From: Advenella kashmirensis W13003
GTDB lineage: Bacteria > Pseudomonadota > Gammaproteobacteria > Burkholderiales > Burkholderiaceae_B
Reading direction: 5' to 3'
Assembly: GCF_000506985.1 (NCBI RefSeq)
Contig: NZ_KI650981.1
Span: 233,122 to 297,121, forward strand
Length of the DNA: 64,000 bases
Under the pieces are notes generated by a model, which saw only the letters and a program-made list of their open reading frames with translations, made no database searches and was not told the origin of the DNA. Numbering within the stretch: position 1 is the stretch's first letter; each line of letters opens with the position of its first letter. The position numbers and the translations under genes were made by a program. Of this stretch, positions 23,496 to 38,187 are shown one piece after another.

Positions 23496-25034
23496 TCAAC
23501 CCGCCAGGTGCTTCAGGACTTCTGGTGCCGACTGCACGGCAACCAGCCGGTGGTAAAAGCGCAAGGCGCGCAGGCCGCCGAGCTCTTCGCCGCCGCCGGC
23601 GCGTCCAGGTCCGCCATGATTGGATTGGGGCATGACATTACCGTGCCCTGTGTGTATCCTGGAGACGGCATCGGTGACCAGATGCACCCGTCCATGACTG
23701 TCACCCAGCGCAAACGCCGCCTGTGCCAGCAGCGCCGTGTCTTCGCTATAAACCGACGCGACCAGCGAGCCCATGCCGCGCCGTGCAAGCTGCCATGCGT
23801 GGTCGATGTCGCGATAAGGAATGAGGGTCGCAACGGGTCCGAATACTTCGACATCATGTACCAGGGGGTGCTCATCCGGCTGGCGCACGCCGAATAATAC
23901 GGGTGGGAAGCAAGCGCTGTCGGCGGGGGCGTCGATGGTCAGTTGCCGGCGGCCATCGAACAGAATATCAGCATGTTTTTCCAGTGTTGCAACGCCGGCC
24001 CTGACGGCCTTCTGTTGCGCCAGATTCACCAGGCTGCCCATGCGTATGCCGTCCTTGCGGGGATCGCCGACGGTCACCTTGGCCAGGCTCAGGGCGAGTG
24101 ACTGCGCAATGGTGTCGTAAGTACTTTCTGGCACGAAAATGCGACGAATAGCAGTACATTTTTGCCCGGACTTGATGGTCAGTTCGCGAACGACCTCACG
24201 AACCAGCAACTGGATGCTGGCCGGATCGGCATCGGGGCCGAGGATGGCGCTATTGATGCTGTCTGTTTCGGCATTCAGCTTTGCCCCGTCGTGCATAATG
24301 CGCGGGTGGCTGCGCAATGTCGCAGCGGTGTCTGCTGATCCTGTGAACGAAACAATATCCAGCCCATTGAGTGCATCGAGCAATCCTTCAGGGCGTCCAC
24401 ATATCAGGCTGATGGCGCCCGGCGGCAGGATCTTTGCCTCTACGACGTCGCGGATCATTTCATAGGTGAGCAAGGCGGTGGACGTTGCCGGCTTCACGAC
24501 AATGGGCACGCCCGACAGCAAGGCTGGAGCGGCTTTTTCCCAAAGCCCCCAGGACGGAAAGTTAAACGCATTGATCAATAATGCGAGACCCTGAATCGGG
24601 ACCTGGATATGCTGCGTCGCAAAGGCGTTATCGCGCGCAAGCGGCACGGCCTCGCCATCAGTCAGGAACGCCTGGCTGTTTAACTTTGCGCCCGCTTTTG
24701 CATACCATGAAAGTGTGTAAATACCACCATCAATGTCAATGGCGCTGTCCGATTTCACCGTACCGCTATTGCTGAGCGCGATATCGTAATACTTCTCTTT
24801 ATTGACCTGCAGGACGTCGACAATCCTGCCCAGCATGGCCGCGCGTGCACTGTATCCCATACTGCGCAAGGCGGGCCCCCCGGTTTGCCGCGCCCAGCCA
24901 TAGGCCGCATTCAGGTCCAGTCCGGTGGCGTCAGCGCTGGCCAGGGCGGTACCCTGGATTGGGTCATAAAGGACGATGCCTGTGCCGGTACCTTCTATCC
25001 ATTGATCATGAACGTAATTACTGATTTTTTTCAC
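23496..25034 (-). CDS. boxD: 3,4-dehydroadipyl-CoA semialdehyde dehydrogenase BoxD
   Basis: Aldehyde dehydrogenase of 512 residues. In the box pathway it oxidises the semialdehyde released after BoxC ring cleavage to 3,4-dehydroadipyl-CoA, using NADP+. The fold is recognisable from NAFNFPSWGLWEKAAPALL, VVKPATSTAL, SFTGSADTA, a general-base Glu in KLNAETDSINS and the catalytic Cys in SGQKCTAIRR. Assignment as BoxD rather than the PaaZ aldehyde domain rests on the divergent boxCBA genes and the lack of a hydratase domain. GTG 25034 has AGAGG upstream and begins at the conserved KKISNYV; a longer frame from a GTG at 25073 has no ribosome-binding site. Confidence 0.88.
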   Translation of the reverse strand: MKKISNYVHDQWIEGTGTGIVLYDPIQGTALASADATGLDLNAAYGWARQTGGPALRSMGYSARAAMLGRIVDVLQVNKEKYYDIALSNSGTVKSDSAIDIDGGIYTLSWYAKAGAKLNSQAFLTDGEAVPLARDNAFATQHIQVPIQGLALLINAFNFPSWGLWEKAAPALLSGVPIVVKPATSTALLTYEMIRDVVEAKILPPGAISLICGRPEGLLDALNGLDIVSFTGSADTAATLRSHPRIMHDGAKLNAETDSINSAILGPDADPASIQLLVREVVRELTIKSGQKCTAIRRIFVPESTYDTIAQSLALSLAKVTVGDPRKDGIRMGSLVNLAQQKAVRAGVATLEKHADILFDGRRQLTIDAPADSACFPPVLFGVRQPDEHPLVHDVEVFGPVATLIPYRDIDHAWQLARRGMGSLVASVYSEDTALLAQAAFALGDSHGRVHLVTDAVSRIHTGHGNVMPQSNHGGPGRAGGGEELGGLRALRFYHRLVAVQSAPEVLKHLAG

Positions 25035-25196: not shown

Positions 25197-25210
25197 TGCA
25201 TTATTTTGCA
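25197..25210. promoter_or_regulatory. TGCA-N6-TGCA motif in the boxD leader
   Basis: TGCA (25197-25200) and TGCA (25207-25210) with a 6-nt AT-rich spacer. This is the motif type reported for the BzdR/BoxR regulators of benzoyl-CoA pathways. It lies just downstream of the predicted start of boxD transcription, a position where a bound repressor would block the promoter. Confidence 0.65.
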
Positions 25211-25220
25211 TGTAAATAAG

Positions 25221-25249
25221 AAGATAGGCAGGCGATGTGTATCGGTCAA
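25221..25249 (-). promoter_or_regulatory. boxD promoter
   Basis: Read on the minus strand: TTGACC (-35, complement of 25244-25249), a 17-nt spacer, then TATCTT (-10, complement of 25221-25226). Predicted initiation is near 25214, giving a leader of about 180 nt before boxD. Confidence 0.6.
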
Positions 25250-25317
25250 GTATTTTGCGAAATGTTTAGGGTAAACACCAGTTTTAATGTGTCCAAAATG
25301 GCACGTCCTGGGTGAGT

Positions 25318-25410
25318 ATGAATCAGACTCCTGCGGCTATTGTTGTCTTGATGAGTGTTGTGCTGGCCGGTTTTGTCTGGATCAAATTGTCGTCTGCTGC
25401 GACGGTGTGA
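25318..25410 (+). CDS. Possible 30-residue membrane peptide
   Basis: A short frame between the divergent box promoters, encoding MNQTPAAIVVLMSVVLAGF and then WIKLSSAATV. It is almost entirely one hydrophobic helix with a Lys near the end. A weak GGGTGAG lies close to the ATG. I do not recognise it. It could be a real small membrane protein or a chance frame; only conservation would decide. Confidence 0.25.
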   Translation: MNQTPAAIVVLMSVVLAGFVWIKLSSAATV

Positions 25411-25493
25411 GCTGACTGACAACCGGCGGGCCGCATCTGTGGGTGTATAGAGTCGTCTTAAATAGAACAGGGTTAACCCCTATTCGAAATAAA

Positions 25494-25522
25494 TTGACGA
25501 TTGATGATTGATGAAATATAGT
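25494..25522 (+). promoter_or_regulatory. boxCBA promoter
   Basis: TTGACG (25494-25499), a 17-nt spacer and TATAGT (25517-25522) make a near-consensus sigma-70 promoter. Initiation is expected near 25529, about 48 nt before boxC. Confidence 0.65.
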
Positions 25523-25541
25523 GCTTTTAACGAAATTAAAA

Positions 25542-25555
25542 TGCATTGAATTGCA
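25542..25555. promoter_or_regulatory. TGCA-N6-TGCA motif in the boxC leader
   Basis: TGCA (25542-25545) and TGCA (25552-25555) separated by TTGAAT. It sits about 13-27 nt after the predicted start of boxC transcription and 21 nt before the boxC ATG. It mirrors the copy in the boxD leader, so one regulator could repress both arms. Confidence 0.68.
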
Positions 25556-25576: not shown

Positions 25577-27232
25577 ATGAGCGAGCTGAAAGTCAATTAC
25601 CAGACCGATCCTTCGCAGTACAAACACATTCAATTGAAAACCGAAGGCGCCATTGCACGCCTGACCATTGATATAGATGAAGACAGCGGGATCCGTCCCG
25701 GCTATAAACTGAAGCTCAATTCGTACGATCTGGGCGTGGATATCGAATTGCATGACGCGCTCAATCGCATCCGGTTCGAGCATCCGGAAGTGCGCAGCGT
25801 GATCGTCTCCAGCGGGAAAGACCGCATTTTCTGTTCGGGTGCCAACATCTTCATGCTGGGGCTGTCAACGCATGCGTGGAAGGTGAACTTCTGCAAATTC
25901 ACCAATGAAACCCGCAACGGTATCGAAGACACCAGCGAACATTCGGGCGTTAAATTTATTGCTGCTGTCAACGGCGCGTGTGCCGGAGGTGGTTACGAGC
26001 TGGCGCTGGCATGTGATGAAATCTATCTGGTTGACGATCGTTCCTCTTCCGTTTCCCTGCCGGAAGTGCCGTTGCTGGGTGTGCTGCCCGGTACGGGCGG
26101 TTTGACACGGGTGACCGACAAGCGCAAGGTGCGCCACGATCACGCCGACATTTTCTGCACACTGGTCGAAGGCATTCGCGGACAGCGCGCCAAAGACTGG
26201 AAACTGGTCGACGAAGTAGTGAAAACAGCCAGGTTCGAAGACACGATCAACGCTCGTGCCCAGGAGCTGGCTGAGCAAAGCGGTATCGCCGTGGGCGCGA
26301 CAGGTATTTCTCTGACATCGCTTGAAAAACACGAAGCGGCCGATAGCCTGAACTATAAATATGTCAGCGTCGATATTGACCGAAACAACAAACACGCCAC
26401 CTTCACTATTCGTGGCCCCGAGGGCGATCAGCCCGACACGATCGATGCAATCGTGCAGGCAGGCATGAACTGGTGGCCGCTGCAAATGGCGCGTGAACTG
26501 GATGACGCTATTCTTTCGATGCGTACCAACGAACTCGATAGCGGCCTGTGGCTGATCAAGACAGTGGGCAATGCGCAGGATGTTCTGAAAAGCGATGACG
26601 TTCTGCTGGCCAATAAGGATCACTGGTTCGTGCGCGAAACCCTGGGGCTGATGCGCCGTACGTTTGCGCGCCTGGATGTGTCTTCACGCTCTATGTTTGC
26701 ATTGATTGAAGAGGGTTCGTGCTTTGCAGGCTCTCTGCTTGAGCCGGCGCTGGCCTGCGATCGTATTTACATGCTGACGCTGCCCGACGATGAAGAGCGG
26801 TCGCCGCGCATTGCCGTGGGCGCCATGAATTTTGGTTTTCTGCCCATGGTGACCCGGCAGTCGCGGCTGGCCCGGCGTTTCTATGACGATGCCACTATTC
26901 TGGAAGATACCAAAGCTCTGGCAGGAACCATGCTCGATGGCGATGAGGCGGAAAAAGCCGGTTTGGTCACATATGCCCTGGATGACATTGACTGGGCTGA
27001 CGAAGTGCGGCTCGCCATCGAAGAGCGGCTGTCCATGTCGCCCGATGCGCTCACCGGCATGGAAGCCAATCTGCGTTTCAATGGTCCGGAAAACATGTGG
27101 ACCCGCATATTCGGTCGCCTGACTGCCTGGCAGAACTGGATTTTTATCCGGCCCAATGCGGTGGGTGAGAAGGGCGCGCTGAAACTGTACGGCAAGGGTG
27201 AAAAACCCAATTTCGACTGGAACCGCGTCTGA
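25577..27232 (+). CDS. boxC: 2,3-epoxybenzoyl-CoA dihydrolase BoxC
   Basis: A 551-residue protein that hydrolytically opens the ring of 2,3-epoxybenzoyl-CoA, releasing formate and the dehydroadipyl-CoA semialdehyde. It is built of two crotonase-like parts. The first has SGKDRIFCSGANIFMLG and NGACAGGGYELALACDEIY. The second starts near residue 260 and contains ALIEEGSCFAGSLLEPALACD. A GGAG site precedes the ATG. It is the first gene of boxCBA. The formate it releases could in principle feed the formate dehydrogenase encoded in the same window. Confidence 0.95.
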   Translation: MSELKVNYQTDPSQYKHIQLKTEGAIARLTIDIDEDSGIRPGYKLKLNSYDLGVDIELHDALNRIRFEHPEVRSVIVSSGKDRIFCSGANIFMLGLSTHAWKVNFCKFTNETRNGIEDTSEHSGVKFIAAVNGACAGGGYELALACDEIYLVDDRSSSVSLPEVPLLGVLPGTGGLTRVTDKRKVRHDHADIFCTLVEGIRGQRAKDWKLVDEVVKTARFEDTINARAQELAEQSGIAVGATGISLTSLEKHEAADSLNYKYVSVDIDRNNKHATFTIRGPEGDQPDTIDAIVQAGMNWWPLQMARELDDAILSMRTNELDSGLWLIKTVGNAQDVLKSDDVLLANKDHWFVRETLGLMRRTFARLDVSSRSMFALIEEGSCFAGSLLEPALACDRIYMLTLPDDEERSPRIAVGAMNFGFLPMVTRQSRLARRFYDDATILEDTKALAGTMLDGDEAEKAGLVTYALDDIDWADEVRLAIEERLSMSPDALTGMEANLRFNGPENMWTRIFGRLTAWQNWIFIRPNAVGEKGALKLYGKGEKPNFDWNRV

Positions 27233-27313
27233 TTGTCGGCTCGCGCTCTATTTATCAAGATTACGGAGTGGGTTCACAACTGAAATACCCGCTCTATGAC
27301 CCCGGAGAAATCT

Positions 27314-28741
27314 ATGTCAAGCATCAATTACACCGATAAGATTCCCAATAATGTGAATCTGTCGCAGGACAAGACGCTGCAGCGCGCGCTGGAGCACTGG
27401 CAACCCAATTACCGCAAGTGGTGGAATGATATGGGTCCCGATGGTTCGCAGGACTTCGACGTATATTTGCGCACCGCCACCAGCGTTGATCCGAAAGGCT
27501 GGGCCTCATTTGGCTATGTGAAAATGCCCGACTATCGCTGGGGTATTTTCCTGAACCCGCGAGACGCCGATCGCCAGGTCAATTTCGGCGAGCACAAGGG
27601 AGAAAAAGCCTGGCAGGATGTACCGGGTGAGCACCGGGCCAACCTGCGCCGCATTATCGTGACCCAGGGTGATACCGAACCTGCATCGGTCGAACAACAG
27701 CGGCATCTGGGATTGACAGCACCGTCCATGTACGACCTGCGCAACCTGTTCCAGGTGAACGTGGAAGAGGGGCGTCACCTGTGGGCCATGGTGTATTTGC
27801 TGCACAAACATTTCGGTCGTGATGGGCGCGAAGAAGCCGAGGCGCTCCTGGAGCGCAACAGCGGCGACGAGGACAATCCCCGCATTCTGGCGGCGTTTAA
27901 CGAGAAAACGCCGGACTGGCTGGCCTTTTACATGTTCACTTATTTCACCGATCGCGATGGCAAGTTCCAATTGTGTGCCCTGGCCGAATCCGGTTTCGAC
28001 CCGCTGGCCCGCACCACCAAATTCATGCTTACCGAAGAAGCGCATCACATGTTCGTAGGCGAATCGGGCGTGTCACGTGTGATTCAGCGCACCTGCGAGG
28101 TGATGAACCAGTTGAAAACCGATGATCCGGCACGTCTTCGCGAAGCCGGTGTGATTGATCTGGAAACGCTCCAGCGCTATTTGAATTTCCATTTCAGCGT
28201 GACCATCGATCTGTTTGGTGCAGACGAGTCAAGCAACGCGGCCACGTTCTATAACACGGGTCTGAAAGGACGTTACGAAGAAACCAAACGCGACGACGAT
28301 CATAAACTCTATGATCGCACCTATAACGTACTGGTCGTGCAGGACGGTCGACTGGTAGAGCGTTCGGTACCCATGCTTAATGCGCTGAACGAAGTGCTGC
28401 GGGACGACTATATCAAGGACTCCGTCGGCGGGATCAATCGCTGGAACAAAGTGATCGAGAAAGCGGGTATCCCTTTCCGTCTGAAAGTGCCGCACAAGGC
28501 ATTCAATCGTCGTATCGGCACGCTGTCTGTTGTGAGCGTTTCTCCCGAAGGGCAAGTGATGCCTGAGGCAGAATGGGTCAGACATGAACGCGAATGGCTG
28601 CCTACTGCAGAAGATCGCGCATTTGTGGCGTCGCTGATGGGCCGAGTCGTAGAACCCGGCAAATTCGCCAACTGGATTGCCCCCCCAGCGATGGGTATCA
28701 ACCGTCAACCGGTCGATTACGAGTACGTGCGTTTCAACTGA
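27314..28741 (+). CDS. boxB: Benzoyl-CoA 2,3-epoxidase, di-iron subunit BoxB
   Basis: A 475-residue class I di-iron oxygenase subunit that epoxidises benzoyl-CoA using electrons from BoxA. The iron ligands are expected in the [19 protein letters not shown] and [14 protein letters not shown] helices. The ATG at 27314 has a CCGGAGA site, so I prefer it to the frame start at 27296. The stop codon overlaps the start of a nine-codon frame that leads into boxA. Confidence 0.95.
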
Positions 28742-28770
28742 TGGGTACCGCCCGAAAGGGCGGGCAATGA
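28741..28770 (+). other. Nine-codon linker frame with a GAAA-tetraloop hairpin
   Basis: The boxB stop (28739-28741) shares its A with an ATG (28741-28743). That frame encodes nine residues, MGTARKGGQ, and its stop (28768-28770) overlaps the boxA ATG (28767) as ATGA. The same bases form a perfect 6-bp GC stem, CCGCCC / GGGCGG (28748-28763), closed by a GAAA tetraloop. It may serve as a re-initiation bridge or a translation brake; function is inferred. Confidence 0.5.
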
Positions 28771-30047
28771 AAGAAATTGGATTCACGATGGAAACAGTGA
28801 TAGCGATGAGCCAACCCGGCCAGGCAACGAAACAGCACCTGATCGATCCGGAAATCTGCATACGTTGCAATACGTGTGAAGAGACCTGCCCGATCGATGC
28901 AATCACGCATGACGGAAACAATTACGTAGTCAGGCCGGATATTTGCAATCACTGCATGGCCTGCGTGGCGCCATGCCCCACGGGTGCGATCGATAATTGG
29001 CAGCCGGTGCTGGCAGATCAAATGTATACGCTCGACGAGCAATATACTTGGGATGAATTGCCGGCCCTGCAGGCGCTTGAGGTTCCGGCGGACGACACGC
29101 CGGTTGCCGCCGGCACGGACAGCGACGCCGAGGTTACCATTCAGGGCAGCAATTATGTCGCCGGATCGCAGATTCCGCCGTGGTCCGCCTCACACAGCTA
29201 TACCAATCTGTATGGCACTCGTAATTTCATTACCGCGACGGTGTCGGGCAATTACAGGCTGACGGACGAATCATCCGAAAGCGATATCCGCCACGTCGTT
29301 TTGGATTTTGGTGAAACGCCGTTTCCGGTGCTGGAAGGGCAATCCATCGGCATCATACCGCCGGGAACCGACGCCAGCGATCGTTTGCATCACGCGCGCC
29401 AGTACTCGCTGGCCAGTCCGCGTGATGGGGAGCGCCCGCGTTACAACAACGTCTCGATCACGGTCAAGCGCGTGGTGCAGGATTATGATGGCAACCCGGT
29501 CCAGGGAGTCTGCTCCAATTACGTTTGTGATTTGAAGAAGGGCGACAAGGTTCAGGTCATCGGTCCTTTTGGGCATACATTCCTGATGCCGAATCACCCG
29601 GGTTCCAATCTCATTATGATCTGCACGGGCACCGGTAGCGCACCCATGCGGGCCATGACAGAAAGGCGACGACGCAAGCGGCAGGATCCGTCCATGGACG
29701 AGCGCGGCAAGCTTATGCTGTTTTTCGGTGCGCGCTGCCCGGAAGAGCTGCCGTATTTCGGGCCGCTTAATAAGCTGCCCAAAGATTTCATTGATGTTAA
29801 CTTCGCTTTCTCCCGCAAGCCGGGGCAGCCCAAACGGTATGTACAGGATGTCATGCGCGAGCGGCTGACGGACCTGCTGGACTTATTGAAAAACGAGAAT
29901 ACTTACATTTATGTTTGCGGACTGAAGGGCATGGAAACTGGTGTGCTGGAAGTATTGCAAGAGGCCGCCGCAGCGGGCGGCCTGGACTGGAGCGAATTGC
30001 ATACGACGCTAAGGCAGAAGGGCCGGCTGCACCTGGAAACGTATTGA
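28767..30047 (+). CDS. boxA: Benzoyl-CoA epoxidase reductase component BoxA
   Basis: An iron-sulfur flavoprotein of 426 residues that moves electrons from NADPH to BoxB. The N-terminus holds two 4Fe-4S motifs, [12 protein letters not shown] and [13 protein letters not shown] ferredoxin-NADP reductase-like module follows, with [12 protein letters not shown] (flavin), [12 protein letters not shown] (NADP) and YVCGLKGME. The start is uncertain: ATG 28767 overlaps the linker-frame stop, while 28788 and 28806 are in-frame alternatives nearer the conserved QHLIDPEIC. Confidence 0.94.
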
Positions 30048-32830: not shown

Positions 32831-33963
32831 TGCGGCAGGAAAAACACGTTCTGACACTCAGTGCGCCGGGCACATCCCATGAAATCAATGCGTTTCATTT
32901 CGGGCCTGCCGACAGCGGACGCAAGGTCTATATGCAGGGCAGCCTGCATGCCGACGAATTGCCGGGTTCGCTTGCGCTTTTTTATTTGAATCGCCGGCTG
33001 CAGGTACTCGAAGCGCAGGGTGCGCTGAACTGCGAAGTCGTTCTGGTACCGTTTTGCAATCCGTTAGGATTGACCCAAACCGTTTTCTATGACCACATCG
33101 GCCGGTTTCAGCTGTCAACGGGGCAAAATTTCAATCGTCTTACCGGCATTGCTTTATATGAGAATTTACTGACTGCCCTGCAAAAAAGTGCAGAGCAGCC
33201 GGGAGCAGATGCCCAGGCCAACCGTAAGCTGATCCGCAGAGCGTTGCGCAATGTCCTGGACGCTTTCGAGCCGTCGCGCCTGATTGATGAGCTGCATGTG
33301 ACCTTGCTGCGCATGGCGTGCGATGCCGATATCGTACTGGATCTGCACTGCGATATCCGGGCCGTGATGCATGTTTATTCCCTGCCGCAGGTGTGGGATC
33401 GCTGCGAACCGCTGGCCCGCTATCTGCAAAGCGAATGTCAACTGCTGGCTGAAGACTCGCTGTCCTGTTCTTTCGATGAAATGGTGTCCACGCCCTGGCT
33501 GAAACTACGGAATGTATATCCCGAGGCGGATATTCCGTTAGCGTGTTTTGCTGCGACGATCGAACTTCGCGGTGACCGCGATCTGACGCACGCAAATGCA
33601 GAGCGGGATGCCGAAGCGTTCATCCAGTATTTGAACGAACAGGGCTATCTGCAGTTGCCCCAGTCAGAGGTTTTGCCCATGCCGCCGTTGCGCTGTGAGC
33701 CCCATCCGCTGGGGGGCCTGGCGTATGTCGGTTCGCCATGCACCGGCATCGCCGTGTATCACGTAGCGGCCGGGCAGTGGGTAGAGCAGAACCAGTTGCT
33801 GGTTGAAATTGTGGATCCGGTCAGGCTGGCAGTGACGCCGGTGCTCGCACCTGTTCGTGGTTTTATTTTTGCCACTGCAGGCGTGCGTCTGGCGCAAAAG
33901 GAATCCAAGCTGTTGAGCTTGTCCAGCCCCGATGATATTGGCAGCGTGGGGTTGTCGCCCTGA
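32830..33963 (+). CDS. Succinylglutamate desuccinylase/aspartoacylase-family zinc deacylase
   Basis: A 377-residue M14-like protein. Zinc ligands are expected in GSLHADELPG (HxxE) and in VLDLHCD. The catalytic-domain stretch NPLGLTQTVF and a C-terminal beta domain with YHVAAGQWVEQNQLLVEIV resemble AstE/AspA relatives. The start overlaps the permease stop (TAATG). The arrangement suggests import of an N-acylated amino acid followed by removal of the acyl group, but substrate and acyl type are inferred. Confidence 0.82.
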   Translation: MRQEKHVLTLSAPGTSHEINAFHFGPADSGRKVYMQGSLHADELPGSLALFYLNRRLQVLEAQGALNCEVVLVPFCNPLGLTQTVFYDHIGRFQLSTGQNFNRLTGIALYENLLTALQKSAEQPGADAQANRKLIRRALRNVLDAFEPSRLIDELHVTLLRMACDADIVLDLHCDIRAVMHVYSLPQVWDRCEPLARYLQSECQLLAEDSLSCSFDEMVSTPWLKLRNVYPEADIPLACFAATIELRGDRDLTHANAERDAEAFIQYLNEQGYLQLPQSEVLPMPPLRCEPHPLGGLAYVGSPCTGIAVYHVAAGQWVEQNQLLVEIVDPVRLAVTPVLAPVRGFIFATAGVRLAQKESKLLSLSSPDDIGSVGLSP

Positions 33964-38089: not shown

Positions 38090-38187
38090 TTGGTTCTATC
38101 ACGTCCTGAGCGTAATGCGGTGTAGCGGACGATGCATTGTCATGCAGATCTCATCGCTCGGGGTCGTCTGTTTATCAGGTGAAAACC

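Follow-up and report, generated by a model that had tools for sequence, protein, structure and literature searches.

The 542-bp gap between the divergently transcribed boxD and boxC raises the question of which regulator controls the two promoters, as no regulator gene lies beside them. No BoxR match was found in the window, i.e., the whole 64-kb stretch of DNA that was analysed (C3:233122-297121). Judged from sequence comparisons, the gap is very probably a divergent control region served in trans by one BoxR, which would act on both box clusters of the genome. This confidence concerns control by BoxR in trans. Such control could take the form of promoter occlusion or of a roadblock, and it therefore overlaps with the roadblock explanation weighed below.

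The boxD and boxC labels used in an earlier note on this DNA agree with NCBIfam, and the two divergent sigma-70-like promoters with 17-nt spacers that it described are present (Table 1). The hexamers are consensus matches only and weak evidence taken alone, because the scan of a 1.5-kb stretch gave four promoter-like matches against 1.8 expected; the boxC promoter scores top among them. The boxC promoter of the second cluster and of five same-genus genomes reads TTGAC(G/C/T)-18-TATAGT. The second cluster also has a layout like that of the window's boxD promoter, as judged by eye. The next gene downstream of boxD, likewise on the minus strand, is biotin synthase-like (TIGR00433, 22143-23204).

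Table 1 Features of the boxD/boxC gap and the adjoining genes, in positions of the window
Feature	Position	Strand	Basis or remark
boxD	23496..25034	-	NCBIfam NF008868, E 1.6e-239; GTG start at 25034 putative
boxC, boxB, boxA	25577..30047	+	NCBIfam TIGR03222, TIGR03225, TIGR03224, each above its own cut-off
boxD promoter-like element TTGACC-17-TATCTT	25221..25249	-	consensus match 9/12
boxC promoter-like element TTGACG-17-TATAGT	25494..25522	+	consensus match 10/12
operator-like TGCATTATTTTGCA	25197..25210		exact TGCA-N6-TGCA; expected boxD transcript start; top matrix score in 64 kb
operator-like TGCATTGAATTGCA	25542..25555		exact TGCA-N6-TGCA; behind expected boxC start; matrix rank 2 in 64 kb
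degenerate operator-like site ATGAAATATAGTGCTT enclosing boxC -10	25511..25526		matrix score 11.2, 11th in window
block homologous to the second cluster's divergent promoter/boxR leader	25197..25281		blastn, 78% over 85 bp
stretch with no match reported for the second cluster or five same-genus box loci	25282..25468		occupies boxR's place there

Behind each promoter stands one exact TGCA-N6-TGCA site, just as the earlier note had it. With the transcript starts assumed, about 10 nt separate the -10 from the minus-arm site, which overlaps the expected start, and the plus-arm site covers about +12 to +27. A third, degenerate site, absent from the earlier description, encloses the boxC -10, and the exact site of this arm follows 30 bp on. 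The symmetry claimed for the two arms is thus incomplete, as only the plus arm has a second site, over its -10. On the window's minus arm, the matrix scan (see below) found no second site scoring above zero; the second cluster and the relatives have a half-like site further up on this arm, with a score of 6.0. The boxC arm of the gap has no further exact site upstream. Members of the BoxR/BzdR regulon are expected to have two or more TGCA-N6-TGCA sites at the box promoters, box genes in a divergent cluster and a BoxR-type regulator in the genome. The gap contains such sites, boxD, boxC, boxB and boxA are arranged in this way, and the regulator is found at L033:8610-9512. A boxR adjacent to boxC, which is usual in this regulon and not universal, is missing at the window's cluster.

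The regulator gene was predicted to lie elsewhere in the genome, and it does. The genome's sole BoxR match at E<=1e-20 combines an XRE helix-turn-helix with a shikimate-kinase domain (PF01381, PF01202) and belongs to a second box cluster (L033), which puts it about 116 kb away from the boxC promoter of the window. A search of the genome for shikimate-kinase domains returned two matches. One is a 199-aa open frame, which is taken as an ordinary shikimate kinase. The other is a 329-aa frame at C3:375014, directly ahead of a second boxC, which shares 91% identity with the window copy. On the plus arm of the second cluster, boxR and boxC are followed by boxB and boxA, recognised by DNA homology (86% over 4.5 kb). 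The minus arm carries LIV-type transporter genes (periplasmic binding protein and permease were tested for this call), a PnbB-like cupin and an AMP-binding enzyme, which is taken from Pfam only as a bclA-like benzoate-CoA ligase. Operators of the same type are present at both arms. At E<=1e-60 the genome's only boxD is the window copy, and the second cluster has none. Nothing else in the genome is close to the ligase: among 16 matches, the next one has 34% identity.

Comparison within the genus bears out the conservation of the motifs. Nine same-genus genomes were searched; five have a full boxC, each time with boxR adjoining. These five loci and the second cluster have exact TGCA-N6-TGCA sites at both arms, in the five loci one per arm. 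The minus-arm core is identical to that of the window in all of them, and the plus-arm site occupies the same place. Over the -10, the second cluster (ATGCAATATAGTGCTT, 17.4) and four same-genus genomes have a site scoring 17.0-17.4; this site is weak in the window and in the same-genus genome G009 (11.1; locus L036, with boxR beside boxC). The exact site follows at 31 bp in the second cluster and the same-genus loci. All five genomes (G001, G005, G006, G007, G009) have boxR and boxC and no boxD at E<=1e-60. Another kind of element was observed in the gap: TGTTTAGGGTAAACA at 25263-25277 is a perfect 6-3-6 palindrome, and AGGGTTAACCCCT lies at 25469-25481. Related, partly palindromic AGGG-W4 elements are found again in the second cluster and in same-genus genomes, in the leader of boxR and upstream of the boxC -35. 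They may be the site of a second regulator; the motif has 7 and 16 matches genome-wide.

Box loci of other genera were used to place the operators relative to the promoter. These named loci are the best 80 of 584 confirmed and are neither a random nor an independent sample. An exact site lies within 220 bp upstream of boxC in 41 of these best 80 of 584 (shuffles: mean 1.1, maximum 4). The 16-position matrix was built from the 44 exact sites of these 41 loci in both orientations. It reaches a score of at least 11 at 77 of the 80 boxC arms (best 80 of 584, the 41 training loci included), against 45 of 1600 shuffled regions and none of 78 coding controls. The 39 loci lacking an exact site took no part in training, and 36 of them score at least 11 (best 80 of 584). 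The boxC arms of L111, L126 and L133 have no site reaching 11. Upstream of boxR, 72 of 74 loci reach this score and 17 of 74 have an exact site (best 80 of 584); the shuffle control covers the boxC arm only.

In the same best 80 of 584, 21 of the 44 exact boxC-arm sites have the first base of the best predicted -10 as their sixth base and thus enclose it. Another 11 sites are without a predicted promoter, nine precede the start of the -10 by 36-47 bp, and three lie downstream of or across the -10 at other offsets. Where a promoter was predicted, the best matrix site encloses the -10 at 29 of 58 loci and one of the best two sites does so at 48 of 58 (best 80 of 584), an overlap to which the motif itself contributes, since its A/T-rich middle helps to make a -10 match. 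A spacing of 30-32 bp is the commonest (29 of 74 spacings, best 80 of 584). Helical phasing over all spacings is just moderate, about 0.5 per period tried, and for this reason only the 31-bp peak is claimed.

Five of these 80 loci (best 80 of 584; L080, L100, L105, L130 and L147) have no boxR in the flank examined (up to 4 kb), and each of the five genomes encodes a BoxR homologue beyond this flank. In two of them, this homologue is clearly BoxR-like, with 64 and 66% identity to the BoxR of the present genome; box-adjacent BoxRs of the named loci (best 80 of 584) have 57-69%. The other three have 47-51%, to be set beside 45-50% for box-adjacent BoxRs from other families of the order and 37-45% for unplaced paralogues in family members. 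L100 and L105 have a single exact site between boxD and boxC. Box clusters without boxR thus recur and are possibly served in trans.

The following mechanism is proposed for the window. BoxR made 116 kb away would bind as dimers at the TGCA-N6-TGCA of the boxD transcript start and, at boxC, at two sites separated by about three turns of the helix, the degenerate one over the -10 and the exact one behind the start. With BoxR bound, RNA polymerase would have no access to either promoter, and benzoyl-CoA would end this block by releasing BoxR. BoxR binding, repression, occlusion over roadblock and benzoyl-CoA as effector are all inferred here. Promoter occlusion by cooperating dimers, as at OR1 of BzdR, is favoured as the better fit because the boxC operator of relatives often encloses the -10, the window has its degenerate site there, and the arrangement partly resembles OR1. 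Compared with the second cluster, the window has the weaker -10 site, which could make repression of the window's boxC leakier.

The earlier note proposed one repressor acting as a roadblock on both arms. The first half, one repressor, probably holds: the genome has a single BoxR match at E<=1e-20, and the gap has sites at both arms. A pure roadblock, in which BoxR at the two exact sites halts a polymerase that has already started, just downstream on both arms, appears unlikely. In its favour, both exact sites lie downstream of the predicted -10. Against it, the one on the minus arm overlaps the region of the expected start. The exact boxC-arm site of other genera is most often found around the -10 (the 21 of 44 above, best 80 of 584), which points to occlusion, and a degenerate -10 site remains in the window, with a strong counterpart in the second cluster.

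Alternatively, the sites could be relics of a duplication, with the window copy constitutive or under another regulator. The missing boxR, the weaker -10 site and the divergence of the copies (84% DNA identity in boxC) would agree with this. Both exact sites are intact, however, though the left block around one of them is only 78% identical between the copies, and the five loci without boxR in the flank examined (best 80 of 584) all have a BoxR homologue elsewhere in the genome. A weak -10 site need not mean decay either, since G009 scores equally low with boxR beside boxC. Relic sites are accordingly a rather improbable explanation, and control by BoxR in trans is retained.

The edges of homology bear on how the two copies arose. 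The left edge of the homology block coincides with the minus-arm operator. On the right, homology starts at 25511 against the second cluster and at 25469 against three of the five same-genus loci. One match extends to 25285, at the edge of the stretch in boxR's place, and a query with 25290-25480 against 30 relatives gave no match beyond one of 22 bases. A 30-residue open frame (MNQTPAAIVVLMSVVLAGFVWIKLSSAATV, 25318-25410, plus strand) was noticed at this place; it has one likely membrane helix, by eye, and may be a chance frame. The boxC DNA tree pairs the window and second-cluster copies (support 90/95, below the tool's star), and in the protein tree they do not resolve as a pair; a duplication within the lineage is therefore likely, not proven. 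Most plausibly, boxR was lost from the gap or replaced, rather than never there.

The motif alone is weak evidence, as TGCA-N6-TGCA occurs six times in the window against 3.43 expected (15 of 100 shuffles reach six) and at 139 places across the 4.85-Mb genome. The whole-window count was rejected as evidence for this lack of enrichment. Position is more telling. The form RTGCA-N6-TGCAY has 42 places in the genome, and the only pairs less than 2 kb apart, in a list judged by eye, are those at the two box loci. With the matrix from the named box loci of other genomes, the exact sites of the gap outrank all others in the 64 kb. Chance origin of both motifs in the AT-rich gap, with which the unremarkable window-wide count would agree, is practically negligible, as two or more motifs in 542 bp (shuffle mean 0.02) came up in only 0.0002 of 5000 shuffles and six homologous loci keep exact sites at both arms, a conservation that already refutes it.

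The remaining window matches (2225, 33179, 38133 and 50293) were dropped as regulon members, being single and without box genes beside them. The match at 38133, where a galactarate dehydratase-like gene begins, is third by matrix score and that at 33179 fourth. The exact minus-arm operator core was seen again at L068:5812-5827 (G000:C1:746811-746826), an intergenic place upstream of methyltransferase and TetR genes. It is possibly a further BoxR target or a product of chance; neither is proven. A site at C1:1943397 has a matrix score of 18.4.

The distribution of genes over the two clusters allows a more speculative idea, held only tentatively, of a split box pathway. The window gives the only boxD and a second boxCBA; boxR and a close bclA-like ligase come from the other cluster alone. 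The half-clusters would then be interdependent under one trans repressor, and the weaker -10 operator would set the response of the window's boxC copy to a different benzoyl-CoA level. If so, duplication followed by loss of a regulator gene would have yielded graded induction. Apart from this idea, the locus seems to be a clean natural case of a duplicated catabolic divergon without a local regulator gene that keeps operators for the remaining one. As the copies differ at the boxC -10 site, their comparison would show what this site contributes. The frequent enclosure of the boxC -10 by the operator in the named loci (best 80 of 584) suggests a simple, testable mechanism of repression.

Among the literature matches listed, in a coverage that leaves out most subscription papers, no paper on the present arrangement was found. 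TGCA-N6-TGCA is the published operator of BoxR/BzdR (consensus ATGCACTATAGTGCAT; PMC6449761), in agreement with the earlier assignment of the motif to this family, and the make-up of BoxR, an XRE-type helix-turn-helix with a shikimate-kinase domain, is described in the same source (PMC6449761). The BoxR box divergons of Betaproteobacteria commonly have the divergent boxD/boxCBA layout with TGCA-N6-TGCA palindromes (Suvorova and Gelfand 2019, PMC6449761). Their multiple sites are mainly 3-5 DNA turns apart, which is alike here. In contrast, boxR is almost always located in the cluster according to this source, and here it belongs to the second cluster of the same genome. Three genomes with two boxR copies are mentioned (PMC6449761); here, one boxR is left.

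The PN promoter of Azoarcus sp. CIB is a second point of reference. OR1 of BzdR covers -32 to +31 and is bound by two dimers (PMC6678401). As in the window, TGCA palindromes lie over and behind the promoter, and the regulator shares the two-domain build of BoxR. The upstream palindrome of OR1 lies between -35 and -10, whereas the degenerate site here lies over the -10. The upstream OR2 and OR3 are needed for induction at PN, and the window's boxC arm has no counterpart in the form of further exact sites. Furthermore, the pathway under BzdR is anaerobic (PMC6678401), unlike the box pathway of the window. A setting of two box clusters per genome, sometimes incomplete, is also described for Cupriavidus (PMC10803450). 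The incomplete Cupriavidus copies keep boxR, whereas one boxR is left for two clusters here. The gap is a functional-looking regulatory region of an already described kind in a slightly unusual genomic setting.
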